Origin: Hexactinellida sp. DTS-2022
Lineage: Eukaryota; Porifera; Hexactinellida
Direction: 5' to 3'
DNA length: 64,000 nucleotides
NCBI GenBank assembly: GCA_028753945.1
Contig: JAPNXP010000010.1
Span: 1,119,042-1,183,041, forward strand
Shown: positions 15,976 through 45,286 of the stretch, in pieces
Layout of the letters: the number at the start of each line of letters is the position of its first letter
Position numbering within the stretch: the stretch's first letter is position 1
Program-made: the position numbers and the translations under genes
The notes under the pieces: generated by a model
What the model saw: the letters and a program-made list of their open reading frames with translations, nothing else
What the model was told of the DNA's origin: nothing
Database searches by the model: none

Positions 15976-16133
15976 CAGTGGCGCACACTAGGGGGCGCTC
16001 AAGCGCCCCCAATATATTCAACGAAATTGTGTATCATTAGAGAAGGTGATATATAATTTAATTAATATTACAATAACAAACTAGGATAATTAGGTCAGAG
16101 CGCCCCCAATAATTAGCAAAGTGTCCGCCACTG
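15976..16133. repeat. hAT-like MITE (CAGTGGCG ends)
   Basis: It starts CAGTGGCGCACACTAGGGG and ends AAAGTGTCCGCCACTG, with GCGCCCCC motifs inside both ends. GTTGTGG occurs on both flanks (about 15964-15972 and 16134-16140), slightly out of register on the left. Confidence 0.6.
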
Positions 16134-17480
16134 GTTGTGGATTCCCCAATGCTGGGGAACCCCAACAACACAGGACTACATTACATTATAATTAATGTGC
16201 AGTAATTGTATTCTGTATGATGACTAGTGGTAATTTGTGTTCAGTAATTGTATTGTGTTGTGTTTGTATGACTATTTGGCTATATCTTAGGAGTAATTGT
16301 ATTGTGTTAGCAGATAATAGGTTTCTTCTCCTTTCAGAGTGTCAGCATGGAACTGAACTGGGATCGCTGTGTGATTTGCCAGCAGGAGACTGGTGAACCC
16401 TTGAAGTGTCCCTTGCTGAGCCCTGGATCAAGTCGTGACAATACAGATGCCTACACATCATTCCTTACCAACGTAGAACAGTTCCGGGCCATTGGTGCTC
16501 TTCCAGGTGAATTATCTTTTGGGAGTGATGAAACTGTTGCCAACTTTGCTTCTCATTCTGCTTCCTGGCACTAATCTTCATCTCTTGAAATTCAACAATT
16601 CTAAGTTAGCAAAGGCAAAGAAGAAGAGAGAGCGCAACCATCATGATGAAGAGAAAATGCCCAGTAAGCGCAAAGCACTTGACGTTCAAAAATGTTTATT
16701 CTGCGAGAAAGGGGAAGATGAACATGTTCTTCATGAAGTTTCAACATTTGATGCAGACAAAAATATCCGGGAAATAATCACAGAGCTAAACGACACCCAG
16801 CTCTTGAGTAGAATAGTTGGAGGAGATCTAATTGCAATGGAGGCCAAATACCATCTGACATGTATGGTCAAGTTGAGAAATCGCTACCGTAGTCTCACTC
16901 GCAAGCTAAACCAAATACCTGAAGACACAGATGCGGAAATGAACGAGTCTCGGGCATTTGAAGAACTCACCAGATACATTGCGGAATCTGTGAACTCTGG
17001 AACTCTCCTCTTCAAACTATCCGAGATCCATTCTCTGTATGTGAAACGTCTAGAAGAACTGAGCATCAAGAAACTAGCCAACAAGACCAGGCTGAAGGAT
17101 CATCTGCTAGAACGGTTCCCAGTGGCACAAGAACAGTATGATGGAAGAAACACTTTTCTCGTTTTTAAGGAAGGCATGAGAAATATGTTGAAGGATGCTC
17201 TGAAGACTCGAGACTTCTCAGAAGAGACATCTCAAGCCATCAAGGCTTCAAATTTACTGGTTGCTTCCCGGGCCAATGCCAAGAAGACTCAATACCCTCA
17301 AGCCTCAAGCCTCTTGTTTCCATGATCTTGAATGGCTCCAACTTGAAAGATCAAGACAAGCGTGACTCCCAGGCTTGCCTAACCATCGGCCAGAGCATCA
17401 TTTACAACACAAAAGGACGCCCTGGACAACCTAGACCACAACCCCAGCTCAACCACTTCCCAAACATCATTCCATGGGAC

Positions 17481-17793
17481 CAGTAGCGGCGTCAGCCCAA
17501 ATTCGGGGGGGCTCAAGCCCCCCCGTAATTATAGAGAGCCCCCCCGTAATTTTGGGAGAGCCCCCTCGTAATTTTGGGTAAGCCGACTCGCATTCTTTTG
17601 AATTGGACAAAAATTTTGTAATTTGAGTACGATAGCTTATGTTTTAAAGTTTGTTTTTCTTTCTGGCAATTGTACGTGCATTCTTATTACTCGAAATAAT
17701 TAAAAGTTAATTTGCAGCGTACGCTTGGCCCCCTCGAAAAAGAGTTTCGGCATTCCCAGCCCCCCCGTTCTTCGATTTCTGGCGCCGCCCCTG
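17481..17793. repeat. hAT MITE with 8-bp duplication CATGGGAC
   Basis: 313 bp between CATGGGAC repeats (17473-17480, 17794-17801). Ends are CAGTAGCGGCGTCAG and TGGCGCCGCCCCTG. G/C runs (GGGGGGGCTC and AGCCCCCCC) lie inside both ends. It interrupts the CXC-family pseudogene, so it is younger than that copy. Confidence 0.85.
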
Positions 17794-19435
17794 CATGGGA
17801 CTGGAATCAGCCTTTTTCAGTTGCCTACCAAGACCAAAGCGGGTGTGAGTAGACCACCTATTACGATACCACCCCTGGAAATGAAATTCATTCTCTTCCA
17901 GACAACTACGCCTCTGTCCCACCGTTGCAATGAAGACCACTGCTGTCTCGGTGCCAGAGTGTGATGTATTTAAAGACAAGGTCGGCTGCTTAGATGAGGC
18001 CAGAGAACTGGAGCAAAGCTGGGTAGAGCATGCACTACCACTTCTAGAGAGAGAACTCACCAGTGGAGATGCCATTGCATGGACTGCCTACTTTGCCTAT
18101 ATGCAACCTCCAGTAAAAGACCCTCCAGCACTATGTGCACTCCTTCCTCTGTTCTATGAGAAGTCCGCCACTCCAGCTATGATCAAGCACGGCATGGATG
18201 TCGTGAGACAAGCTGTCGAATTTCTGAATCCTGGACAAATCCCAGTCACTACATTTGACCAGCCTCTGTTTGCCCTGGCAAAATTTGTACAGTGGAGATG
18301 GCCAGACACTCATGGTGAGAGAGTTCATGTGGTTATGCTAGGTGGTCTGCACACAGAAATGGCCCTCTGGAGTACACTGGGTGATGTCTTGGATGGTTCT
18401 GGCTGGATAACGTCCCTCACACAGGCAGAGGTAGCATCCTCTGGCACAGCTGATTCTTATCTGAAGGCAGCACCTAACTCGAACCAGGCATGCCCACCAA
18501 GTCACTCTCTTGACCCTGCATATTCTCCAGAAGGAGGCTTTCATGCTCAGCGAGGGCCCCAAAGACAATGCATCTGACATGGCCTGGAGAAACGACATGC
18601 AGAAGAAGAGTCCTACTTTCATGTACTGGGACCTGATCATGAGATATGAAACCCTAATTCTCATTTTCGTCAGGGCTCACAGAGAGAAAAATTTCCCTCT
18701 GTATGTGGAGGTCTTGGAGGAACTCACACCGCTCTTCTTTGCCTTGGATCATGTTAACTACTCACGGTGGATGCCTATCCACATCAGGGACATGAAGTCC
18801 TTGCCTGACACTATCAATGATGAGTTTGAAAGGTGTTCCCACTGGGTCCTTTCCAAGACCAGCAACAAGTTCTCTGCCATCCCATTTGATCAGGCTCACG
18901 AGCAGGAGAACAAGATTGTGAAAGGATCGGGAGGTGCTGTTGGGCTCACACAAAATCCGGTTGCTTTTCGACGATGGATGCTCTCTGGCCCAGACTGCCA
19001 GACTGCTAAAGCCGTTTGAGGAAGAATACCCTCCTGATGATGATCCACAGATACCCAAGAACTTCCAGCACCACGAGCAGGCTCTCTCGACACAGAAGTC
19101 CTTACAGAGACAGGTTACCAGCCTCTCCGAAACCATCAGAAGAATGGGCAATCCCTTCTTTGATGATTTCCCAGATTTAGTAACTCTCGACAATCGAACC
19201 TCGCAGACGAAACCGCGGTAGTCGCAGTGCACACCTTGGAGGATACAGGCAAGAAACAGTACCAGGAATTCGTCAAGAATGTGCTTGATGTGCGCAGCCA
19301 CTCCATCCATGACCCAATCCACAGGAATTCTCTTGTGATCTTCAGGATTCATCACCGCAAGGTAACATCTAAGCAGGGGAAGAAAACTCAAAGTGCTTCA
19401 GAACAATTTGTCACTCTTTGGTCAGCTATACATAT

Positions 19436-20112
19436 CAGTGATGTGCTCCGTTACTAAATCTTCCGTTACTCCGTTACCCCGTTACCGTTACTTTATATCT
19501 CCCGTTACCCATGGGCGTAGCCAACCAAAAAAATTTGGGTGGGCCATTATTTTTATGAGTCATTACAATAAAGTGAGCGAAAGCTAAATCTATCCTTATT
19601 CAAAGTTAATCTAGAAAATTTGGGGGGGCCCAGGTATAATTTTTGGGGGGCCAGGCCCCCCAATAGCCACGCCCATGCCGTTACCGTTACTTTATTTGCT
19701 CCGTTACCATTACTCCGTTGCCGTTACTTTTTTTCTCCCGTTACTTTTGCTCCGTTACCGTTACTTTATTTCTTCAGTTACCGTTACTCAGTTACTTTTT
19801 TTAATTTTATCAGTTTACCTTTATTCAGTACAGTTTACCTTAATGTAACGGTAACTGATTTAAAATAACATTGTAATTGCAATGGAATAAGTTTAACGTA
19901 GTAACGGTTAGTTGTTACGGTAATGTAATGGTAAGAGTGACTTATTAAAGATAACGGTAACTAGTTAAAAGTAACGGATGTCCGTTACCGTTACTCGGCG
20001 ATGCCCGTTACCGTTACTTTTTTCCATTACCGTTACTCCGCGACGCCCGTTACCGTTACTTTTTCCGTTACCGTTACCGTTACTCCGTTACTAGTGACGG
20101 AGCACATCACTG
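19436..20112. repeat. hAT MITE filled with CCGTTAC satellite
   Basis: 677 bp between ATACATAT duplications (19428-19435, 20113-20120). Ends are CAGTGATGTGCTCCGTTAC and complement. Most of the interior is a degenerate array of CCGTTA/CGTTAC hexamers, in both orientations. It splits the CXC-family pseudogene and carries a nested MITE at 19510-19677. Confidence 0.85.
19510..19677. repeat. Nested hAT-like MITE (CATGGGCGTAGCC ends)
   Basis: 168 bp, starts CATGGGCGTAGCC and ends AGCCACGCCCATG, with CCGTTACC on both sides (19502-19509, 19678-19685). As the target is itself a CCGTTA array, the duplication is less decisive. Interior G/C runs resemble the 17481 and 48649 elements. Confidence 0.7.
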
Positions 20113-21498
20113 ATACATATCTATGCAGAACAGGGAAGATGACTTGGCTGAGTTCTTTGCACATGAAATACAGTCCTTCCCTCCTTCCCTCTCAGACTTT
20201 GGCAAGCTTCATTTACCAAACACGAAGTCTGGCCTGCTGCAATGTCTTGAGCAGCCCGTGCAATCAGAGCCACCCTCAACTTACGACTGCAAAGTCATGG
20301 ATGGTGCCGTCATCGTCCACTTCCTACCAACTGCCAGCGTCAGCACCTTCCATGAGTATGCAGACATTGTATTCATACCGTACCTGGAGAAGCAGATGCA
20401 GACTGCCACGAAGTTGGATGTTGTGTGGGACACATACATATCAGACAGTTTGAAGGAGTCTACGCGGGAAAAGAGAGGCAAGGGCGTGCGCAGGAAAGTC
20501 TCAGGCAAGACGAAACTGCCAGGCAATTGAATGGACTTCCTCCGTGACCCATTGAACAAGAAGGAGCTGTTCGCCTTTTTGACTTCCAAGGTTGAAGAGT
20601 TAAAATTGCCACCAGCCAAAGCTGCATATGTCACATCAGGGCAAGCTGTGGTGTCTATTGGTGCCAGCACCCCCATGAAAAACTGCAATCATGAAGAGGC
20701 GACACCAGAGTTATGGTTCACATAGTGCATGCACTGGAGCAGGGGGCAAAGACTATTCAAGTGCGTACAGTAGATACAGATGTTGTAGTCATCCTTGCAG
20801 GCACATTCCATGATCTTATTGCGACTCATCCTTTGGCAGACATCTGGGTTGCCTTTGGCATGGGAAAAAATTACAGGTTTTTTCACATAAACGCCATCTG
20901 TGCAAGCCTGGGGGAGCCAAAATCACGAGCATTACCTGTATTACATGCATTTTCAGGTTGCGTCACAACCTCTGCCTTCAACGGCAAGGGCAAGAAGTCA
21001 GTTTGGCAGGCCTGGCATGTTTATGAAGACATCACAGAGACATTTATGTATCTCGCCAGTCACCCCTTCCAGCTGCTGGATGTCGACGATGACCATTTCA
21101 AAAAGATCGAGAGATTGACTGTTATCTTGTATGACAAAACCAGTCCTTTGAGATCCATCAACGATACAAGAAGGGAACTCTTCTGTCACAAGAATCGAGC
21201 AATGGACAAGCTCCCACCCACCAATGATGCGCTACTCCAGCATGTCCGACGTGCAGTGTATCAAGCAGGAATCTGGACGACCAGCACACAAACACAGCTA
21301 GTGATTCCTTCTCCACATGATTTTGCCTGGACCAAGATATCAGATTCGTGGGTACCAGTTTGGGTGACAATTCCAGAGGCTTCCAGAGCGTGCAGGGAGC
21401 TAATCAAATGCTTTTGCAAAGGGGACTGCTCCATCTGCCAGTGTGCCAAAGCAAATCTTGACTGCTCACCACTTTGCAAGTGCAAATGTACTCCATAG

Positions 21499-21769
21499 AT
21501 CATATCAAAGTGTATGTAAGTATCTGTGACTGTTGCTATAGTAGTTATTGAATTAAATTAAAAAAATGTTCATATTTAATTCTATAACATTGTATTTTGA
21601 TAACATCTTCATATGAAATTTTTTCAATAATTCAATAAATTGATTTTTTTTTTCAACGTCGGAAGAGAGGGCTCCTAGGCTAACATTCATCAATAGGCCC
21701 TAAGGAAGCCTCATGCAAAATATGGTGCTCTTATCCGCAATGTAACGGTAATTTCACTAAGCCACCTCA
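21499..21769. other. Spacer between opposed CXC-family copies
   Basis: AT-rich with a T run near 21640. No coding signal. Confidence 0.4.
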
Positions 21770-23790
21770 CTAACTGGTTGAAAGCAGTATTGAATGCACC
21801 CATCCTTATGATAATGTTCTTGTAATTTGTCTTGCTTCCACACTATCTCTGCAATATTAGCATACAATGCTTGGTCAAACACACAGACAATTTGGTTCAG
21901 GTGCAGGGACTTCATGATGTCGAGTGTTTGGTTGAGAACTTCATTTACAGTGACATAGCTGTAGCAGGAGCATTGATTGTTGGCAGGTAGCTCACAGTGT
22001 CCTGGATCACAACCACATTATCCCTGATCTGGATGTTAAAGCCAGTGCAGCTGCTGATTGTCTGGTTCTCAGGGATCGACATGCGTGCACCTACCAGACA
22101 AAGTTCTTCATCTTTGCCTCCTGGACCTGGTTCCTAGTGTCAACATCCAATGTCTCAAACATTGGTGGTCCAGCCGGCTGACCGACGTTGTAGGCTGGTA
22201 GTAATTATGGTTTAGGGATGATGCTTCTCTGTTTTGACTTTGTGATGACTGGCATGACATTTGCTGGAGAAATTTGGGCTGAACAACAATTCCATTGACT
22301 CGATGAGTGGTCCCCTCTCCACTTGTTGTCTCTTCAAGACGATCAATATTGTCCCATGCCAATGTTCTGAAGTCACCTGGGTAGACATTTTCTGGAAGTG
22401 GCATATTATCCTTAGAGAGATCTTGCTTCTGGAGACATAGTGCAGTGTCAATCTCCTCAACTTGTGAATAGGAGACACCGTGGCCAAACAGATTCAGAAT
22501 TCGTATCAAGTTTGTATTGCCGGTCAGAGGCTTCACAACAAATGGAAGAAGGATATGCTTGGGTGGCTTTAACTTTCCACAAGTGACAGCAAAGACCAGA
22601 TCACTGCCGAAGCTAGTGGCTAGTCTCTGGATTCTTTCGGAGGGTTTCCACAGTCAGATTCCCCAGTCAGCAGGGTATACAACAATTGTGTGACTGATTC
22701 TGGGATGATGTCCTTGTCCTTCTGTGGGTTGGGTAGCCAAGACTGAATGACATCTCTTTTCTTTATGTCATATCTCAGCTGCATAGCTGCCTTGCCTGAA
22801 GCATCTACAGAAGTGCCAGCTTTTGTATTTTGCAGTTCTTTCTTCAACTGGTATGCTTGTCTGGCAAGCTCATTCCTAGACAGACTGTCTGGAACACAAC
22901 AAGTCTTCCATTGGCACCAGAAAAAAGTGCAGGGATGCACCAAATTCACTTTCAAGCTTTCGACGCAGATGTTTCTTGGATGACTGTTTCAACTCAGTAA
23001 CACCAAAAGAATTCAAAGTCCCCTCCAATCTTTATGTCATGGGTTTAACTTCTGGATTTGTCATCAGTTCATTTCTGATGTAGAAAAACAGCTCCTCGTG
23101 GGCTTGACTCTGCTTCTTGATACACTGCATACTCATTTGCTCTTTTGTCAAACTAACAGATGAGCTGGCAGCAGATTCAACACGTGTGTACAGCCTGTAA
23201 CATGTTCTGTGGTAATGTCCTTTAGCTGCAACCAGCTCTATACTCAATATTGATAACATTCTTTCATCCAGTTTTCTGGTTGCTGCTTTACGAATGATGT
23301 CATCTGCACGTAGTTCAACACACTGGATGAGAGGCTCTCTGGTGTTCTGACCTTTAATATACTTGCTTGATTTGCTACAGAATATACATATTTTCTCATA
23401 GACTCTGGATGTGGAGGATGCCTCTCTGGAGGACCTTCTGATTCTGTCTGTATCACTCTCTGTGCTGATTTATTTGGCAGCTATGGACTCTAGTAGTTTG
23501 TTCATTGTGAAATGCTGCGACACTTGCGGTGATATTGTATCATGTGCGCTGGAGGCATCTCTCCTTCTGGGAGGCCTTTGGCTATGTCCAGAAGTGGGAC
23601 ATGCTTTCTGATCTCGGAGGCCTTTAAGATTGTCCTAAATGAGTCAAGATATTTCGATGACACTAAATACTCGGAGTCCGAAGGATAATCAGAACAGTGG
23701 ATGACACAGGTTGTACGTGCTCGCTTCTTTGGGAACACATGGACTTCCTCTTCACTTCGAGAATCCATGCTCGCACTACCACACAAGACA
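21770..23790 (-). pseudogene. Second CXC-family TE-like copy, N-terminal and middle parts
   Basis: On the minus strand the blocks run from an N-terminal cysteine block with YHRKCRSIS (23502-23786), through SILKVRTPESLSSSV (23244-23456), VAAKGHYHRTCYRLYTRV (23032-23259), a helical region (22620-22955) and LIRILNLFGHGVSYSQVEE (22108-22536). It ends about 21770 with ALYANIAEIVWKQDKLQEHYH. Several frame changes separate the blocks and the C-terminal core and CXC end are absent. It lies tail-to-tail with the first copy. I infer a degenerate, truncated relative of the same multi-copy family; no function is expected. Confidence 0.6.
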
Positions 23791-23874
23791 GATAATTGTA
23801 CAAGAAATACTGAATCTAATAGGCTAAAACAATGATTTAAAATTAATTTAAAATTATATTTATACAGTGGATGC

Positions 23875-24040
23875 CGGTTATAAGCACATCGTCGGGAACT
23901 GCACTTAAGGTGCTTATAACCGACATGTTCTTATAACCGACATAAATTATACAGGGTATATGGCAACAGTTTTCCAACATAGTGTGCTTATATCCGATAT
24001 GTTCTTATAACCGGTGTGCTTATATCCGACATCTCTACTG
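23875..24040. repeat. TA-flanked MITE, CAGTGGATGCCGG family (copy 2)
   Basis: 166 bp, TA on both sides, ends CAGTGGATGCCGG and CATCTCTACTG. Highly similar to 6526-6692. Confidence 0.8.
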
Positions 24041-35989: not shown

Positions 35990-36390
35990 TAGAAAAGGAA
36001 CTGCCCGAATATTCAATTTATATGCATGGGGAAGCTGCATTTGTCCGAATTTTGTAGTATTCATTTGTCCGAATTTTGAAATATGCATCTGTCCGACTGA
36101 CGTATGCATTTGTCCGACTGGAGTATGCATTTGTCCGAATTTACATTGATGTAAGCATTTGTCATTCATATGATATTTTGTCACTAAGACACTTAGAAAT
36201 GCGAGTGTTTTATCAATAATCAATACAAGGCACTTAGAAAGTCGGTGTTTTCCCAATGATCACGTAGACACTGAGATTTTCGGACAAATGCATACAACAA
36301 ATTCGGACAAATGCATACTCCCAAATTTCGGACAAATGCATACTAGAAATTCGGACAAAAGCATGCGCCCCATATGCATTCGATAGAGAA
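35990..36390. repeat. Inverted repeat carrying TGCATTTGTCCGAATTT arrays
   Basis: Four or five copies of a 22-25-bp unit (TGCATTTGTCCGAATT) on the left face at least four complementary copies on the right (about 36275-36365). The centre holds a GCACTTAGAAA repeat. Termini are not resolved. Confidence 0.65.
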
Positions 36391-36454: not shown

Positions 36455-36463
36455 GTCGCAAAT
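36455..36463. repeat. Left 9-bp target duplication of the MULE (GTCGCAAAT)
   Basis: Identical to 44674-44682 on the far side of the element, immediately outside the inverted repeats. Nine bases is the standard Mutator duplication length. Confidence 0.9.
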
Positions 36464-36952
36464 ACGAGTGTGAAGTTAGCAAAAGATTCAAGTGAGCACA
36501 CTTCAAACGCCAATTTGACCCACTTATACATGCTCAATTGACTTGATCTTTGTTTTGCTTGAAAGAGGGGATAAAGTGGATTAGGAATATCCCATATTTT
36601 ACACAAAAAGGTGTGAAATTTGTACTTGAAAATTTTACATAAAATTTCCTTTTTTTTTCAAAAAGTGAGCACACTTCAAACGCCAATTTGACCCACTTAT
36701 ACATGCTCAATTGACTTGATCTTTGTTTTGCTTGAAAGAGGGGATAAAGTGGATTAGGAATATCCCATATTTTACACAAAAAGGTGTGAAATTTGGACTT
36801 GAAAATTTTACATAAAATTTCCTTTTTTTTTCAAAAAGTTTGTTTAGAAAATTGTCAATTTTTAATTTGAGCCTACAAATTTATGTAACAGTGAATTATA
36901 GATCTCAAAATGTCATGAATAGATTAGTATTTCCAACTACCTCTGATAATTT
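36464..36952. repeat. Left MULE terminal inverted repeat
   Basis: About 489 bp, matching 44184-44673 in reverse with a few mismatches. It contains two tandem copies of a 174-bp unit beginning GTGAGCACACTTCAAACGCC (36492 and 36666). Reading frames across the unit are repeat artefacts, not genes. Confidence 0.9.
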
Positions 36953-37926
36953 CAAATTCTACATTATTTGACTTTCCGTAAAGTTCGATACTCAATTGTT
37001 GATTAATAAATTCTTCATCACTATTAGATGATTAATGTGTTACTAATTTAACATTGTCTATAACCGTTGACGTAAAGACATGATGATAGGTTAGTTATGA
37101 TTACGATTACGATTAGGATAATAGCTAAATTGTGTGATCGATTAAAATTGATGAAGATTGTAATCGTAATCGGTCCCAACCTGATGATGATCCTTGAGTG
37201 CTATTTCTTAGTTCACAATTATCACTTCAGTTTTGAAAAATGTATATTATTATCTACAGGTAAATAGTTCTGTAGTATAAAACATGGTATACTTTGATTA
37301 AAAGACTAATTTTCAACATTCAAATTCAGAGTATGGAAATACCTCCACATAAAAATGGAATCCCATTCAACGTCTTCGGTAAGTATACTTTGATTCATTA
37401 AAATATGATACAATTTCAAGTCTTTTACTTATGAGTATTTTAATTAACATTACTCGATTTCTTTAGGGATTTTAGTTAGGAGATAATATTCAATGCGAAT
37501 ATTCATTTAAAGCCAATATTAATTAACTTACAGCCAGTCCATAACATTCGGAATAATTGCGTTTGCAGTTCGTATTGACAAGCTGCTCCTCTGCGCTCCG
37601 CGCGTTAAGACAAACTTGCACTCGGGCCTGCGGCCCTCGCTTGTATTCAAAAGCATATACCTTTTCAAATACTATGCCAATTGTAATTAAATATTGTGAT
37701 ATTAATGAAAATTTAATGAAAATTATGCATCCCCTCGCCCTATGTCGATACGTTTTTTTCCCATTTTGTAATAAAAAAACCATCGCGATTAATATATAAG
37801 ATTATTCGGAAAACAGTGTGTACTTCGTATAATCTACTCGGACGATTGGTTTTTTGTTTAAATCTTTATTTATAATGTAGTTATATCTACTGCTTACACA
37901 CTTTTAGATTTACCACCCGATCTACA
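36953..37926 (+). promoter_or_regulatory. MULE 5' region before the transposase frame
   Basis: A possible short upstream exon (ATG at 37334, donor GGTAAGTA at about 37379) could splice to TTTTAG at about 37907, but the phases I tried do not join the main frame, so it is not called. A CG-rich hairpin block at 37590-37650 resembles one at 45970-46010. Confidence 0.35.
37560..37660. repeat. CG-rich hairpin block shared with 45960-46045
   Basis: GGGCCTGCGGCCC-type hairpins with GCTTGTATTC flank, inside an otherwise AT-rich MULE. The same block occurs in reverse orientation at 45960-46045. Origin unknown; possibly an old element fragment captured by the MULE. Confidence 0.5.
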
Positions 37927-40221
37927 ATGGTACTTGAATTTATCATTGAGAATACATTTTCTCTCTCAAGTGCAATGGAACTTCTAAATCAAACTGACTC
38001 GCATCCTAACTCTATTTGGGGCAAAATTAGTAATGCTGTAAATGGCCGAAATCGTCCATTGTTGAGGAAGAAGATTTATCTCAAGTGGGTGAAGAATGTT
38101 TCTAAAATTCAGGATTGTGTAAACAAGCATTTTGAGGCTGTTACAATCCACCCTAAACTATCTATATTTGTTCCAGCGAATAATAAAGATCGTCCTGAAA
38201 CTTGTAAAACGGAGCAAGTTCGTCCCGTTTTTATTATTCAACCTCCACAATATTTGCCTATTAACGAAGATTTACAAATAAGGTATGAACTCGAACGATT
38301 AACTGTACAATTTAGAACATCTCTATTTTCTAAACGTATATTGAAGGATATTAATACCACTACCGTGAATTCTAATTTGAATTTTGTATCAAATTTAACC
38401 CAATTCTTTCGTAAAATAGACCTAAAATGTGTAGAATCGGAGCTAACTAATGATCATCTCTTCACTTTATGGGCATCAGGATCATGTGATATAGATTCGT
38501 ATTTGGATTCTGTTAAAGATGTTAAAAGGCGCCTTAGCGAAAGAGAGATAGATCATGGCGATAATCTTGCCTATTTTAATAATTGCGATAGCCAAATTTG
38601 GTTCGACGGTATTAAACATTACGAATGTACAAATGAAGAAAATATTCATTTCGACAATGGTTTCATATTATTCAAGAAAGATTACATATTCGATGTAATA
38701 CAAAATTTTGTAAATGTTTTTATTGGAAAATATAAATCGAAGCTATTAGAAAGATCTCAAATAATGTCATTATGGCTAATGCACAAAAACATAGATAATC
38801 CTAATTATGTTTATTTATGGGGTAAATATTATATCTGGATCACGCAATCTGAAATAGCTAACTTTATTGGATGGATAAATGGACTAAGAGAGAAAAATGA
38901 GATTTTCTATAGAGAAAGATTAAGAAGCGTGTATACTGAAATTCTTACTAAGATCAATAATAACTCTGGTTTTCTCCTGGATTCTTCCGAATCAAAATGC
39001 ATAGATTTAGAAAATCATGAAAGTAATGATTCATGCGTAGAAGTCTCTAACCTAGATCATACCTCTTTATGTAGTACTGACTTTGATATTTCTTCAAACT
39101 CTGCAAATTTATTAGGGTCATCAGATAAATTGGAAATCAATGAAAATGGTGAATTCATTGTAAGTTTTGAAGAATGGCAAAATATTACATCAACGGATTC
39201 CGAAGGTAATACTAAATGTAATCAAAACTGGACCAATATTTTTGCAGAAAAATTACTAGAATGTGTCCCGTACTGTGTGTTAGTGTTTAAGATTCACTGG
39301 TTTAGCAAATTGAATAGTCGTAAACATAACTGTGCTTATTTTCAGGCTCGTGCTTATTGTAAATTTGATAACTGCCTTTCATTTCATATTTGTATTCAAG
39401 ATAGACCAGATCCTTTAAATACTTGGGTTAAGGTTATCTATTCTACCCGAGGGGTGATATCTTCTCAACATTTTGAAGAAAAAACGGCTCATTCGAGACA
39501 TCTATCAGGAAATTTGCGCTGTCAGGTCGCTCAAAAATTGGATAATTTTTCCACCAGTAAGTATTACTATTCCCAATTTGGCGATCCATTTGAACTTTCT
39601 CAATATAAATACGGTAATTTAACTAGCTTAAAATCACAAACATGTTTAAGGAAAGTTAAATCGGAAACAAGATCTGCAGCACGATTTTCTACTGATCAGT
39701 TAGTTGATATTTCAGAAACACGGTCATATTTTTGTCAATTATTACCTGGTAGCTTAATGTCAGGATATATACAATACTTTGCTCAACATCCTTTTGTAAT
39801 ACACATGCATACAGAAGAACAGATTAGGTTATTTAATTGTTATAAAAAAGATATTATAGTTCTCAATTTAGATGCCACTGGATCAATTATCAGTAACCCT
39901 TTTCCTGGTTCTACAAGAATATTTTACTATGCCTTAACTCTACAACACCCAAAGTATAAAATGAGTCCGGTTCCTGTTGCGGAAATGATAAGTAATGACC
40001 ATACAACAGCTGAAATAACCCATTTCCTATACAGATGGTTTTTAACATGCAAAAAAGTTATTTCCAAAGACCTAAATATAGCCCAAGTTGAAATGGATTA
40101 CAGTTGGGCTATTTTACATAGCGCATGTACTGTGTTTAATAAATCTAGCTTGGTTGATTACCTAGAAAAGTGCTGGCGTATTATCGTCAACAAAGAAGAA
40201 CTTAAGGGTAATCTGTATTGA
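37927..40221 (+). CDS. MULE transposase, N-terminal part (catalytic D, D)
   Basis: 764 aa. It would bind the element ends and cut and join DNA in the nucleus. Residues about 475-500 (CAYFQARAYCKFDNCLSFHIC) look like a zinc-binding FLYWCH/GCM-like DNA-binding module. The RNase H-like core begins near residue 645: VLNLDATGSI gives the first catalytic D (649), and QVEMDYSWAI the second (724). The frame ends at 764, before the expected CxxH and E, which appear at the start of the next frame (42255-43940). The end of this frame (CTTAAGGGTAATCTG) contains a plausible splice donor, so the two frames are likely exons of one protein. ATG 37927 is the first in frame. No other gene in the window is similar. 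Confidence 0.8.
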   Translation: MVLEFIIENTFSLSSAMELLNQTDSHPNSIWGKISNAVNGRNRPLLRKKIYLKWVKNVSKIQDCVNKHFEAVTIHPKLSIFVPANNKDRPETCKTEQVRPVFIIQPPQYLPINEDLQIRYELERLTVQFRTSLFSKRILKDINTTTVNSNLNFVSNLTQFFRKIDLKCVESELTNDHLFTLWASGSCDIDSYLDSVKDVKRRLSEREIDHGDNLAYFNNCDSQIWFDGIKHYECTNEENIHFDNGFILFKKDYIFDVIQNFVNVFIGKYKSKLLERSQIMSLWLMHKNIDNPNYVYLWGKYYIWITQSEIANFIGWINGLREKNEIFYRERLRSVYTEILTKINNNSGFLLDSSESKCIDLENHESNDSCVEVSNLDHTSLCSTDFDISSNSANLLGSSDKLEINENGEFIVSFEEWQNITSTDSEGNTKCNQNWTNIFAEKLLECVPYCVLVFKIHWFSKLNSRKHNCAYFQARAYCKFDNCLSFHICIQDRPDPLNTWVKVIYSTRGVISSQHFEEKTAHSRHLSGNLRCQVAQKLDNFSTSKYYYSQFGDPFELSQYKYGNLTSLKSQTCLRKVKSETRSAARFSTDQLVDISETRSYFCQLLPGSLMSGYIQYFAQHPFVIHMHTEEQIRLFNCYKKDIIVLNLDATGSIISNPFPGSTRIFYYALTLQHPKYKMSPVPVAEMISNDHTTAEITHFLYRWFLTCKKVISKDLNIAQVEMDYSWAILHSACTVFNKSSLVDYLEKCWRIIVNKEELKGNLY

Positions 40222-42254
40222 TATTCGGGCGTTCACGGTGAATCTCAGAATTGCATAATTTACTACTAGGAATACTCTAGATGAGATAGAGATTGACTTC
40301 TATGATTTTTTTTCTTCTTAATTTTCAATCAAGATGGTGTTTTTTAATAAAATAAGACGTCGACTTCCTTATATGGGCATGACATTTTTTCAAAATTGTT
40401 GAATCTTTTTGAATTTTTGAACATATTATTATGAGACTATTTCCTCTCAGTAATAATTTTTATTTTATTTATTTTTGCAGAAGAAACGATGCTAAAGGCC
40501 ATTTTTTCAAAATAATCATAAAACGCAGTCGTGCACTAAACTATAGTTCTAAAATGTTAGAAGAAAAAAATTTCAAATCTAGTTCAAGGGTCTGAGGATG
40601 TATCATGTGTTACCCCAGAGAAATTTTTTGACTTTCTGATTATTATTTTTGGTTTTATAAGCATTCTAAGGCTGCGGCCCACGAATTTTTCCGAATTTCA
40701 AAATCAAAAGAGGTGATAAAATTCTACACTGCCATATATTGTTCCCAAAATTAAAAATTTCGGAATCTACATGTCAAAATATACAGGTTCACGTCAAAAA
40801 GTTCAGGAATATGTCAAAAATTAGGAAATTAGGGGCATAAAAGAATATGAAGGGTATGCAAGTACCCGGTGATCATATATTACTGTGGGAAATTGGACAG
40901 CAGAATAATTCTGTTATTCTTCATAAAAATGCGCCAGCTTCTTATCTATGCGTAGCATTTGTTTTCAACACTTTTACAATAATATATCATGAGTTATGAC
41001 CAATTTATGACTATGGTTTTGTCTGTTTTGTCATATTTTCACACCTCAAGGCCCTCAAATATACAATAAAGTATTATATAAAACACCAATTTGGTAATAC
41101 AAATATGGAAATAGCATTTGCGCACAAAATGAGACGTTACACAACACGATCCAATCATTATTCGATAAGTTATGGACTTTTGGGCCACAGAAGGGGGCAA
41201 AAAATATGACATTTCACACCTGTTGATATTTCAGAAACGCTTTGAGATAAAATGATCATAGGCATTAGAAAATACTGTAAATACCTGACTTTCTATACGT
41301 TTATAATACATTTTAGGACTCTAGGTGTCACACTTTTTAACATGACCATATATGGTAATTTGATGTGCCCAATTTTGATGACGAAGCAAATTTTGTAACT
41401 CTTGATCTCTGGACAGCAGAGACTAGCTCTAAAATTCTAGTCACATCATGATACTATTTCTTACTCATTGGATAAACTTTTGGGATTATATTATAATTCG
41501 AATGATGTGTTCTGATTTCAAATGCCCAAATATGGTGGTGTCAAAGTGGCAATATGTTAAAAAGCTGACAAAAATCCAACTTCTGATCCAAATGAGATAG
41601 AGCTTAGCTCTAAATTTCTAAAAATAGTCTAATTCAATTTCAAATGACATTATCTATTTTATGCAGTTTAGGAACTCCTTTTCCTCGCACTTTCATATTC
41701 TGGACTCAGCCACTTCGACACAAATTAATTAAATGCTAATTATGAAGGTGTAAAAAAAGACCATTTGGGCATATGGATGTAAAAAAGAGAATTTTTATTC
41801 TAGAAAGTCAAACTTTTTTTTAAAATGCTCAGAATATGTAGGCGCATGTTTTAAAAGCGGGCAGTTTTGGCAATATAATACAAAAAAATTGAATTAGTAT
41901 ACTTTTAATGAAAAATAGTGGGTTTTTTTTGACCAATTTCACAAAAATGACAATAACATAGAGTAGATTAAAGAAAAAGCATATTTCGGTTCGATTTAAA
42001 ACATTGAGTATTGACTCAGGTATATTTTATAATTGACATGTTTCGCGCTAAAAACTAACATAAAAATTTTTTTTAAATATTTGGCTAGTATGGATTAGGC
42101 CTATATTGACATTGTCTAGTTCATAACTAAGGATATATACATAGTAGAACTCTAATATTTTCAGGGATATCTTAGATATATTAGTACTATCCAAAAACGC
42201 AATAAAAACATTAGGTCGTCGGGTGTCAAAATATCAGTACAGAGCACCCTTAAT
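40222..42254 (+). other. Probable intron inside the MULE transposase gene
   Basis: Two kilobases with many stops on both strands, T- and A-rich. A donor-like AAG/GGTAAT lies near 40207-40212 and an acceptor-like TATTTTCAG near 42165. The frame of 42255-43940 stays open upstream for at least 25 codons, as expected of an exon continuing to an acceptor. Not proven; it could also be a non-coding spacer between two genes. Confidence 0.55.
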
Positions 42255-43940
42255 TTGGAACCAGTCCTTCATATTTGTTCAGCACACATAATGCATAGAT
42301 TTTCTCATCAAATAGCTAAGAAATTCAAGGTTGACAAGAAATTAAAATCATTGATACTGTATGTTTTAGGATCAATGATTTCATGTAAACAAATTTCAAA
42401 ACTTGATACTTTGTTCACCTCATTATGCTATGTGCTAGCTAGTGAATTTATTATTCCTTTAGTGAGTGAACATTTGATTGTCCTAGAATCATTAATACAG
42501 GGGGAGTATTCCTTCGATTTGGATGTAGAGGACATTGATAAAGAAAACGAATCCAATGAAAATGCTAAAACATATAAAGAAAAATCGCTATTTGGTCGAC
42601 ATTTTAGTTCCCTGTGGATTGAATGTATTAATGACATACAGAAATATGAAACATCTATCAAAACCAAATTAAATTTTAATACCTGTTTTAATCCTAATAT
42701 CTTAAAACATATCCTCACTTATTACATGCCATTAGTTCCTTTGTGGAGTGGGCTAATTCTTAATATTATAAAACCTGATAATCATCCTACAGATAGTAAT
42801 GCACCTGTTGAAAATTGGTTCAGGATTGTTAAATACAGTATTTTTGATGGCAAACTAAATATTAAAGCTGCAGATTTTATTCGACAAATATATCCAAATA
42901 TTCAAGAGCGAATTGCGGCATTTAGATTTGGCTTTGAGGCTATAGCGAAAAAAGTCTTTGTACCTAAGAAGAGGAAGTTATCACAAGTTATCCCTGAAGA
43001 GGAAGTTTGTTATGAAAAATGGTCTAAACGAAAGAAATGCAATTCTAGTTATATATACCCTCAGATAAATAAAATTGAGAAAGCATTTGGACAATTTCCC
43101 ACAAAACGACATTGTAGCAAGGTGACTAAAAGGTTTGTAAAAGACCAACTAGAAAATACCTTGCAACATTGCAATAATTCATTAATGTCCAATCTAAATA
43201 AAAGAACACCTAGTTTGAATTCACCCAAAGATAATGTACTTGTACTTTACAAGGAAGATCGAAGTGATATTTCTTCTTTCAAACTACCTATCCAAGATGT
43301 CAATATTATATCGGATTGTGATTTAGTTGAAATTTCAATTGACTATAGCATACTACCTCCATTTCATCCTGTAACACCATTATGGCAAAGTAACATGTGT
43401 AAAGATCTTAAGCTCAATATGGTAAATGGTATAGAATATAATTCAAACAATGGTAACAACAATATTAATCTACAAGTATGTAGTCCTTGCAGGTATAAAA
43501 CAATTGCAGGAGATGGGAATTGTCTATTTTCATCATTATGTTATTGGATAACTGGCAGTGTTGATGACCAAACGACAGTACGCAATATAATAGTCAATAA
43601 TATGGTAGGGAAGTATAGGGATGTCTGCTATAATTATATTAAAAACAAGTATCCAGTCACAGTCAGTGGTTTCAGAAGTACCATAGATTACGTAAATAAA
43701 ATCAGAATGAGAAGAGACAGAATATGGGGAACTGATACTGAATTGTTTTCCGCGGCCTTAATTTTCCAAACTGATATTTGGGTCTATTCAGTTGGAAACA
43801 AATGGGAAATATTCTCAGGATCAGGGAAAAGTATAGGTGAAGTGATACAATCACCACCATCTAACTATTTAGGGAGTATATACATTCATTACACAGGAAA
43901 TCATTATGAACCCATTCTAGGAGTAGTAAAAGACAGTTAA
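42255..43940 (+). CDS. MULE transposase C-terminal part fused to OTU cysteine protease
   Basis: 561 codons counted from a TTG at 42255; the first ATG is 42291, and the frame is open further upstream, so it is more likely an internal exon. Residues 8-11 (CSAH) are the CxxH found between the second D and the E in Mutator-type transposases; the E is residue 186 in NAPVENWFRIVK. After a basic linker (VPKKRKLSQ, KRKKC) an OTU domain spans about residues 410-557: GDGNCLFSSL holds Asp 420 and Cys 423, and GNHYEPI holds His 550. OTU proteases remove ubiquitin-like modifiers. The catalytic triad looks intact, so the domain may protect the transposase or act on host ubiquitin signalling; that role is inference. 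It ends 240 bp before the right terminal repeat. Confidence 0.8.
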   Translation: MEPVLHICSAHIMHRFSHQIAKKFKVDKKLKSLILYVLGSMISCKQISKLDTLFTSLCYVLASEFIIPLVSEHLIVLESLIQGEYSFDLDVEDIDKENESNENAKTYKEKSLFGRHFSSLWIECINDIQKYETSIKTKLNFNTCFNPNILKHILTYYMPLVPLWSGLILNIIKPDNHPTDSNAPVENWFRIVKYSIFDGKLNIKAADFIRQIYPNIQERIAAFRFGFEAIAKKVFVPKKRKLSQVIPEEEVCYEKWSKRKKCNSSYIYPQINKIEKAFGQFPTKRHCSKVTKRFVKDQLENTLQHCNNSLMSNLNKRTPSLNSPKDNVLVLYKEDRSDISSFKLPIQDVNIISDCDLVEISIDYSILPPFHPVTPLWQSNMCKDLKLNMVNGIEYNSNNGNNNINLQVCSPCRYKTIAGDGNCLFSSLCYWITGSVDDQTTVRNIIVNNMVGKYRDVCYNYIKNKYPVTVSGFRSTIDYVNKIRMRRDRIWGTDTELFSAALIFQTDIWVYSVGNKWEIFSGSGKSIGEVIQSPPSNYLGSIYIHYTGNHYEPILGVVKDS

Positions 43941-44183
43941 TACTTACTCTAGCATCTAAATTATGTAATTGGTACTTTAGTGGGAATTTGTATAGTTTAT
44001 ACAGTTCTATGCATATTATTAGTCTCTATTATCATTATTAGTTATTATTCTTATTAAATGTTGTTTAATAAATTAATATGAATTAACTTAGTATTTCAAA
44101 TTGTATCGAATGGGATCTATAAATTCTGAAAGTTTAGATTTACAATTGTAAGTGAATAAGTAGGAAAAACTAAATTAAACTTT

Positions 44184-44673
44184 AAATTATCAGAGGTAGT
44201 TGAAATACTGATCTATTCATGACATTTTGAGATCTATAATTCACTTTTACATAAATTTGTAGGCTCAAATTAAAAATTGACAATTTTCTAAACAAACCTT
44301 TTTGAAAAAAAAAGGAAATTTTATGTAAAATTTTCAAAGTCCAAATTTCACACCTTTTTGTGTAAAATATGGGATATTCCTAATCCACTTTATCCCCTCT
44401 TTCAAGCAAAACAAAGATCAAGTCAATTGAGCATGTATAAGTGGGTCAAATTGGCGTTTGAAGTGTGCTCACTTTTTGAAAAAAAAAGGAAATTTTATGT
44501 AAAATTTTCAAGTACAAATTACACACCTTTTTGTGTAAAATATGGGATATTCCTAATCCACTTTATCCCCTCTTTCAAGCAAAACAAAGATCAAGTCAAT
44601 TGAGCATGTATAAGTGGGTCAAATTGGCGTTTGAAGTGTGCTCACTTGAATCTTTTGCTAACTTCACACTCGT
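44184..44673. repeat. Right MULE terminal inverted repeat
   Basis: About 490 bp, complement of 36464-36952, with the same two tandem 174-bp units, ending at the 9-bp duplication 44674-44682. Confidence 0.9.
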
Positions 44674-45286
44674 GTCGCAAATTCCCTTTGTTTACTAACA
44701 CTTTAGTTCATTTGAAAGTGTTAAATCTAATTGTATTGTTTCAACTTGTGATAATTATATTGATTCCTCTTGTGAGATCGAGTAGGCTTCTATTTTCTAA
44801 TTGAAAACTAAGCTTCTACATTCCATAACAACGACAGATTATGTGATTATATTTACTTCTGCGAGAATATTATTGCACTGTTAATATACTGACGTAATTA
44901 ATTATAATTAATTCAGTCAGTATATGACTTATATAGATGCTTCCAATTTGTTTATGAGGGGTTATCGAGTGTGCGAAATTGAAATTTGATAGCCAAATTA
45001 ATTAATTAATTATTTATGACAAAATAATTTAACTTAATAAATGTAAGTTGACATTGAAATTGATGTTAAATTATAAATAATATTAATAATTATTTATACT
45101 AATTAATTAAATATCATAAATCTCAGAGTTTATAGAAGATAGAAACAATTTCAAATTTACCAATTGATCCTTATGCCACGTAGCACCTCTACAAATGGGT
45201 CTTGACACCTTGAGGTGATGATGACATCGTCAAAAAATGTGTTTTTACAATTTTGTGAATTCCATGTTTCGAATGGGTTGGTTGGT
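44674..45286. other. Non-coding flank of the MULE
   Basis: It begins with the right 9-bp duplication (44674-44682). The rest is AT-rich; CTTGACACCTTGAGG at about 45204 recurs at 50917. Confidence 0.45.

Follow-up and report, generated by a model that had tools for sequence, protein, structure and literature searches.

An OTU-bearing transposon in a glass sponge contig

We analyzed a 64,000-nucleotide stretch of the glass sponge Hexactinellida sp. DTS-2022 (GenBank assembly GCA_028753945.1, contig JAPNXP010000010.1, positions 1,119,042 to 1,183,041; hereafter the window) and characterized an 8,210-bp transposable element at window positions 36464–44673 that encodes a transposase and an OTU cysteine protease domain (Table 1). 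The element is framed by ~490-bp terminal inverted repeats (TIRs), each arm built from two tandem ~173-bp units, and the 9-bp target-site duplication (TSD) GTCGCAAAT lies directly outside both ends without mismatch, just as an earlier note on this DNA had placed them. Every motif named in that note is also present. The upstream open reading frame (ORF) holds a CxxxxC motif (39358) and the first and second catalytic aspartates in LDATG (D1, 39868) and EMDY (D2, 40090), and the downstream ORF holds CSAH (42276), the catalytic glutamate in PVENW (42804), and an OTU triad with D and C in GDGNC (43509–43523) and H in NHYEP (43899–43913).

Table 1. Features of the element and its flanks (window coordinates)
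Feature	Position	Strand	Details	Basis
Left TSD copy	36455..36463	+	GTCGCAAAT	
Left TIR	36464..36956	+	outer end ACGAGTGTGAAGTTAGCA; two ~173-bp tandem units at 36490-36839	
Transposase, N-terminal part	37876..40221	+	781 aa stop to stop; first ATG 37927; own stop inside insert	
Nested repeat	40206..42249	.	2,044 bp, TTAA-flanked	
Transposase, C-terminal part with OTU	42156..43940	+	594 aa stop to stop; residues before 42250 insert-derived	
OTU cysteine protease domain (PF02338)	43509..43907	+		Pfam profile, motifs
Right TIR	44181..44673	-	two ~173-bp tandem units at 44298-44647	
Right TSD copy	44674..44682	+		

A nested repeat interrupts the window copy

The window copy carries 2,044 bases that sister copies in the same genome lack, and this insert splits the transposase between D2 and the CxxH motif into the two ORFs listed above. 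The insert is flanked by TTAA at 40202–40205 and 42250–42253, has termini GGGT/ACCC, and is non-coding, with a longest open stretch of 69 aa. It has 40 genome matches at 99–100% identity, itself included (the best 40 of 856 candidates), and further copies lie within the related loci L023 and L028 (98.8 and 98.6%). Four other loci of the family (L009, L010, L013, and L014) lack the insert and show CTTAA just once at the insertion site, and the window N-terminal transposase matches the L009 element at 99.8% as far as the insert. As judged from these sequence comparisons, the insert is a TTAA-targeting repeat that appears to have amplified recently. The upstream frame reaches its stop within a few codons of entering the insert, which severs D1 and D2 from CxxH, E, and the OTU domain. 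The earlier note had described a complete element; with no uninterrupted transposase ORF, the window copy is instead broken and not a complete autonomous transposon.

An insert spliced out as an introner-like intron would leave the window copy functional, and GT- and AG-like sites are visible by eye near its ends. We consider this very improbable: the nearest pair (GT 40208 and AG ending 42164), the one pair followed by hand, fails to join the two frames, and a TTAA-flanked repeat with 40 genomic matches speaks for a mobile insertion.

Two further observations concern the surrounding DNA. A 45-bp direct repeat, TTTCGGACAAATGCATAC.., lies at window 36278–36370, just beyond the left end of the element, and window 16001–24000 has raised G+C content (0.43–0.46) and several long ORFs resembling another repeat.

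Intact copies encode a transposase–OTU fusion

The terminal sequence recurs genome-wide, with 48 matches at 79–100% identity and several matches per element, more than chance would give. Both ends were found in 16 of 21 loci scanned (the window and 20 fetched loci), and the other five lack one end in the stretch examined. Target duplications at the two-ended loci are perfect in 14 of 16 cases (ten at 9 bp and four at 8 bp), the remaining two matching at 8/9 and 7/9 positions, and therefore fit the 8–10-bp, mostly 9-bp, duplications of Mutator-like elements (MULEs). Inverted repeats composed of tandem sub-repeats in varying number, a foldback-type feature, are also present, with about six ~173-bp units in the left arm of L010 as judged from match positions.

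L009 (C7) and L010 (C5), sister copies at 99% identity, encode single frames of 1,343 and 1,349 aa, each containing DATG, EMDY, CSAH, PVEN, GDGNC, and NHY. The subfamilies L015–L018 with L027 and L020–L022 with L028 likewise hold DATG, CSAH, and GDGNC in one frame of 995–1,261 aa, and L023–L026 have a frame of 819–1,096 aa with the motif PDGNC. Some copies are not open; L019, L012, and L014, for instance, have no frame joining both parts. The occurrence of transposase and OTU in a single open frame identifies the OTU as the C-terminal domain of the transposase. Subfamily proteins are 33–40% identical to L009 over the whole protein and 36–46% over the second two thirds, and eight residues are invariant across nine aligned proteins: D671, D746, C790, H793, and E968 of the transposase and D1202, C1205, and H1332 of the OTU domain.

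The transposase is a divergent relative of MULE transposases

The assignment of the element to the Mutator type held in part. Its 8–9-bp duplications and D-D-CxxH-E core agree with such an element, and the five core residues (D, D, C, H, and E) are shared without exception by the 15 proteins aligned, vertebrate relatives included. The Pfam profile search proposed in the earlier note gave no support: PF10551 (MULE), tried on both window parts and on seven fused proteins, has no match at E ≤ 1, matched 0 of 31 relatives and fused proteins scanned, and among the best 150 of 961 candidates in a genome scan has none within the fetched sister copies, by coordinates. We compared the core with a profile of eight PF10551-type MULEs from the same genome (L037, L038, and L046–L051), and observed weak local matches to the E region and D2 region in order (E 0.001 and 0.016; reversed control 0.69). 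A pooled 13-sequence profile gave E 0.0017 and 0.0074, and shallower profiles gave 0.043 at best with two sequences and 0.36 with the other MULE type (reversed controls 0.55 and 0.77). L037, the profile member that was scanned individually, combines PF10551 with a FLYWCH finger.

An RNase H fold for the D-D-CxxH-E core is supported by the structural model and VIA-align; Foldseek alone returned nothing for the transposase at E ≤ 0.001. The VIA list includes P element, hAT, and Transib chains, and we do not file the element with these; that a family is missing from the list is no evidence either way. PADLOC reported nothing, and no relative was confirmed among 32 and 46 pattern matches in viral and prokaryote contigs. 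On account of the 8–9-bp duplications, the weak profile match, and the predicted fold, we label the family a divergent MULE/foldback-type (NOF-FB-like) element, which falls outside the strict Pfam MULE definition. The lack of matches further suggests that a clade of animal transposases, with members in fish and a sea cucumber, goes undetected by the Pfam MULE model.

The OTU domain is conserved, constrained, and ancestral

The OTU assignment of the earlier note is upheld by profile search and by an intact D/C/H triad. PF02338 matches the window at E 6.4e-7 (30.4 bits, cut-off 23.3) and exceeds the cut-off in six of seven fused proteins from fetched loci, L022 falling below at 19.8 bits. A model of the L009 OTU region (predicted local distance difference test score 83.7) has OTUD3, OTUD2, viral OTUs, and DUBA at the head of its match list. 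Sequence search of solved structures gave nothing significant, the best match being a kinase (E ~0.5); a chain at E 0.76 is a viral OTU according to the later structural comparison.

We surveyed the triad in 31 loci, comprising 21 long and ten shorter stretches, and found D, C, and H kept in 27. With matches from different frames pooled, the window and L009–L028 retain all eight invariant residues (21 of 21), decayed copies too, with L011 keeping the triad in a GDRNC motif. Six of the ten shorter stretches show the OTU D, C, and H. Copies with a lost OTU or altered triad, which the earlier note had named as evidence against its reading, do exist, but as single cases: L053 has a deleted OTU, L041 has N for D, L042 has N for C, and L040 has no aligned H together with D for the catalytic E. 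Most copies keep the OTU, as do L052 and L054, where it is out of frame with the preceding sequence.

Nei–Gojobori counts in 12 pairs of copies gave two that are informative for the OTU, L018/L015 and L020/L022; the other pairs have few OTU differences or a saturated synonymous rate (dS). In L018/L015 the OTU has 13 synonymous and one non-synonymous differences, a ratio of non-synonymous to synonymous rates (dN/dS) of 0.02, compared with 0.23 for the core, 0.24 for the linker, and 0.40 for the N-terminal part. Corresponding values in L020/L022 are 0.13 for the OTU, 0.20 for the core, 0.36 for the linker, and 0.32 for the N-terminal part. The OTU of L018/L027 has five synonymous and two non-synonymous changes (0.11), and that of L009/L018 has a dN/dS of 0.20 at a dS of 2.1. 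OTU dS in L018/L015 is 0.145, more than double the core value; exchange by recombination among copies may account for this. These counts indicate purifying selection on the OTU, which the earlier note had proposed to look for, in the two informative pairs, at ratios no higher than those of the core.

A core tree of 27 rows chosen from the loci and from proteins P0001–P0086 (374 columns) places the ten OTU rows in one clade with 99/99 support. This clade also takes in P0076, a truncated protein from Oopsacas minuta, a glass sponge. Eight of nine Ulp1 rows group with a truncated relative (100/99), the ninth, P0027, sits on a long branch, and other relatives are unresolved. The topology is best explained by a single, ancient gain of the OTU. 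The earlier proposal that this element had captured a protease is accordingly replaced by an OTU that appears to be the ancestral C-terminal domain of one transposase clade.

OTU sequences occur in additional repeats of the host genome. A second family, represented by L055:567-1250 (G000:C6:3515400-3517600), has 40 copies at 93–100% identity, the one read included, and a 227-aa OTU ORF. Its homology to the transposon OTU (E 4.5e-24) begins ~45 residues before the core, and the L055 stretch does not contain the window family's terminal motif. Among the best 150 of 440 candidates in an OTU genome scan, many lie in multi-copy ORFs of 226, 227, and 446 aa. OTU domains thus appear, from sequence, to be spread by several repeats in this genome.

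Unrelated proteases occupy the C-terminus of relatives

Protein searches recovered at least one relative with a single sequence, and 28 and then at least 63 with alignments; the named sources are fish, a lizard (Pogona), a sea cucumber, and a sponge. P0006, P0007, and P0015 are 95, 77, and 96% identical to L009, and P0076 is 68% identical to L020 over 409 aa, by a wide margin the closest protein from a named organism that we compared and one that makes a hexactinellid host likely. Over 301 aa, L009 shares 29% identity with a hake protein that its source calls '120 protein in NOF-FB transposable element'. Ulp1 (PF02902) lies at the C-terminal end of eight of ten fish-named proteins (P0024–P0026, P0029, P0042, P0053, P0061, and P0073), a count that is not a rate since P0029, P0042, P0053, P0061, and P0073 were picked partly for precomputed Ulp1/PHD domains. 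The P0025 match is below cut-off, P0040 and P0041 have no Ulp1 match, and P0027 also carries Ulp1. PHD matches pass the cut-off in P0029, P0042, and P0061; weaker ones that fall short of it occur in P0024, P0026, and, near the N-terminus, the sea-cucumber protein P0018.

A Pfam scan recognized no protease in P0016, P0017, P0019–P0022, P0034, or P0037. By eye, Cys-box-like motifs (CWLNS, TCxIDN) occur in the C-termini of P0017, P0022, P0016, P0018, and P0019 (lizard, sea-cucumber, and other proteins), none with a Pfam call; those of P0017 and P0022 resemble the Cys box of ubiquitin-specific proteases (USPs), and these C-termini may be further cysteine proteases. That unrelated ubiquitin and SUMO proteases recur at a single position speaks for selection on the reaction and not on the fold. 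We tentatively propose, as a possibility short of an even chance, that the foldback/NOF-type clade depends on a fused ubiquitin or ubiquitin-like protease and that unrelated folds fill the C-terminal slot (OTU in sponge-type members, Ulp1 in fish, either alone or with PHD, and perhaps USP-like Cys boxes elsewhere), with an OTU module shared in the host genome between the window and L055 families. If true, this would parallel Ginger1 transposons and imply that a ubiquitin or SUMO step limits transposition.

A candidate deubiquitinase within the transposition machinery

Together, sequence and predicted structure favor the reading that the window holds a recently inserted, now broken cut-and-paste transposon of divergent MULE/foldback type whose intact form carries an OTU that is probably an active deubiquitinase. 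The intact element would encode one protein of ~1,250–1,350 aa with a CxxxxC/H DNA-binding-like region, an RNase-H-fold D-D-CxxH-E transposase, a linker, and the C-terminal OTU. In the chemistry predicted from the fold, the transposase would recognize the tandem units and the ends, cut the element out, and reinsert it with 8–9-bp duplications. Brought to the transposition complex by fusion, the OTU could cleave ubiquitin from the transposase or from chromatin or repair factors at the break, and would benefit transposition by protecting the complex from ubiquitin or by altering repair. Judging by the intact relatives, the protease seems to be functional and to have been retained in the transposition machinery over a long time. 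A TTAA-targeting element would later have jumped into the transposase of the window copy, leaving it movable at most in trans.

Other roles for the OTU can be weighed against deubiquitination. The fold could be kept for a non-catalytic use such as ubiquitin or chromatin binding or dimerization, as the altered triads of L041 (D to N) and L042 (C to N) would allow; retention of D, C, and H in 27 of 31 loci and an OTU dN/dS no higher than that of the catalytic core make this unlikely. Slightly less likely still is an autoprotease that cuts the fusion into free transposase and free protease. Some viral OTU-fold proteases self-process fused proteins, and such a role would suit the one long ORF, in which a ~130-residue linker of low conservation (dN/dS 0.24 and 0.36) separates transposase and OTU, but no conserved cleavage-like motif was noticed by eye in the linker alignment, and Ulp1, a ubiquitin-like-conjugate protease, in the same place in fish points to ubiquitin or SUMO rather than self-cleavage. 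MULEs often acquire host gene fragments (described in part of PMC6446971), and a Pack-MULE-like passenger without a role would follow that precedent; an in-frame fusion that is ancestral to one deep clade and under purifying selection leaves this the least credible of the explanations.

Relationship to known transposons

Enzymes that cleave ubiquitin or SUMO are encoded by, or fused into the proteins of, several groups of DNA transposons. Among the closest published systems is MuDR-6_HM, a Hydra MULE listed with 'Ovarian Tumour Gene' in Table 1 (group 14) of PMC6446971. By that table entry alone it resembles the window family as a MULE-type element with an OTU and one ORF, and differs in that the table indicates no TSD and gives no TIR. 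Our search of literature joining OTU with MULE, Mutator, or Phantom found no paper on such an element, a weak negative given that very entry, and the main text of a 2026 arthropod MULE survey (PMC13359780) has no occurrence of OTU, protease, or ubiquitin.

Foldback elements have long inverted repeats with tandem units (excerpts of PMC4079207 and PMC3169594), an architecture the window family shares. NOF-FB (Foldback) and the fish proteins P0024–P0026, P0029, P0042, P0061, and P0071 have a homologous transposase core, the NOF-FB tie running through the name of the hake protein and not the Drosophila NOF sequence. Where their C-terminus is recognized, the fish relatives have Ulp1 in place of the OTU, in several cases together with a PHD finger. 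Rehavkus, an outgroup to MULEs described in PMC6446971 with 9-bp TSDs, long TIRs, a PHD finger, and a minisatellite before the 3′ TIR, is similar, by description alone, in its TSD, its TIRs, and the PHD fingers of several protein relatives. It differs in its own PHD finger, as the window parts and fused OTU proteins have no PHD match at E ≤ 1; before its 3′ TIR the window copy has only a 19-bp repeat in about two copies (44006–44056).

More distant elements carry comparable proteases. The Ginger1 transposase has a C-terminal OTU or Ulp1, but not both in one protein, and sometimes a PHD finger, and a protease role in repair during transposition has been suggested (as given in part of PMC2836005); the fused C-terminal protease is like that of the window family but the transposase is of Gypsy-integrase type, making this a parallel case. 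Helentrons encode an OTU protease (excerpts of PMC4067079 and PMC6431247) in which all function-required residues are conserved (PMC4067079), but they are rolling-circle elements with the OTU as an additional ORF. With MuDR-6_HM, Ginger1, and Helentrons published, OTU-bearing transposons are a known kind, and what is new here is a variant in which the OTU is fused to the transposase in a multi-copy family that has intact members and shows evidence of selection. The family combines near-identical copies that are intact, a single ancestral fusion of the OTU, decayed copies for comparison, and relatives bearing Ulp1 instead, a setting in which one could ask directly whether transposition needs deubiquitination.

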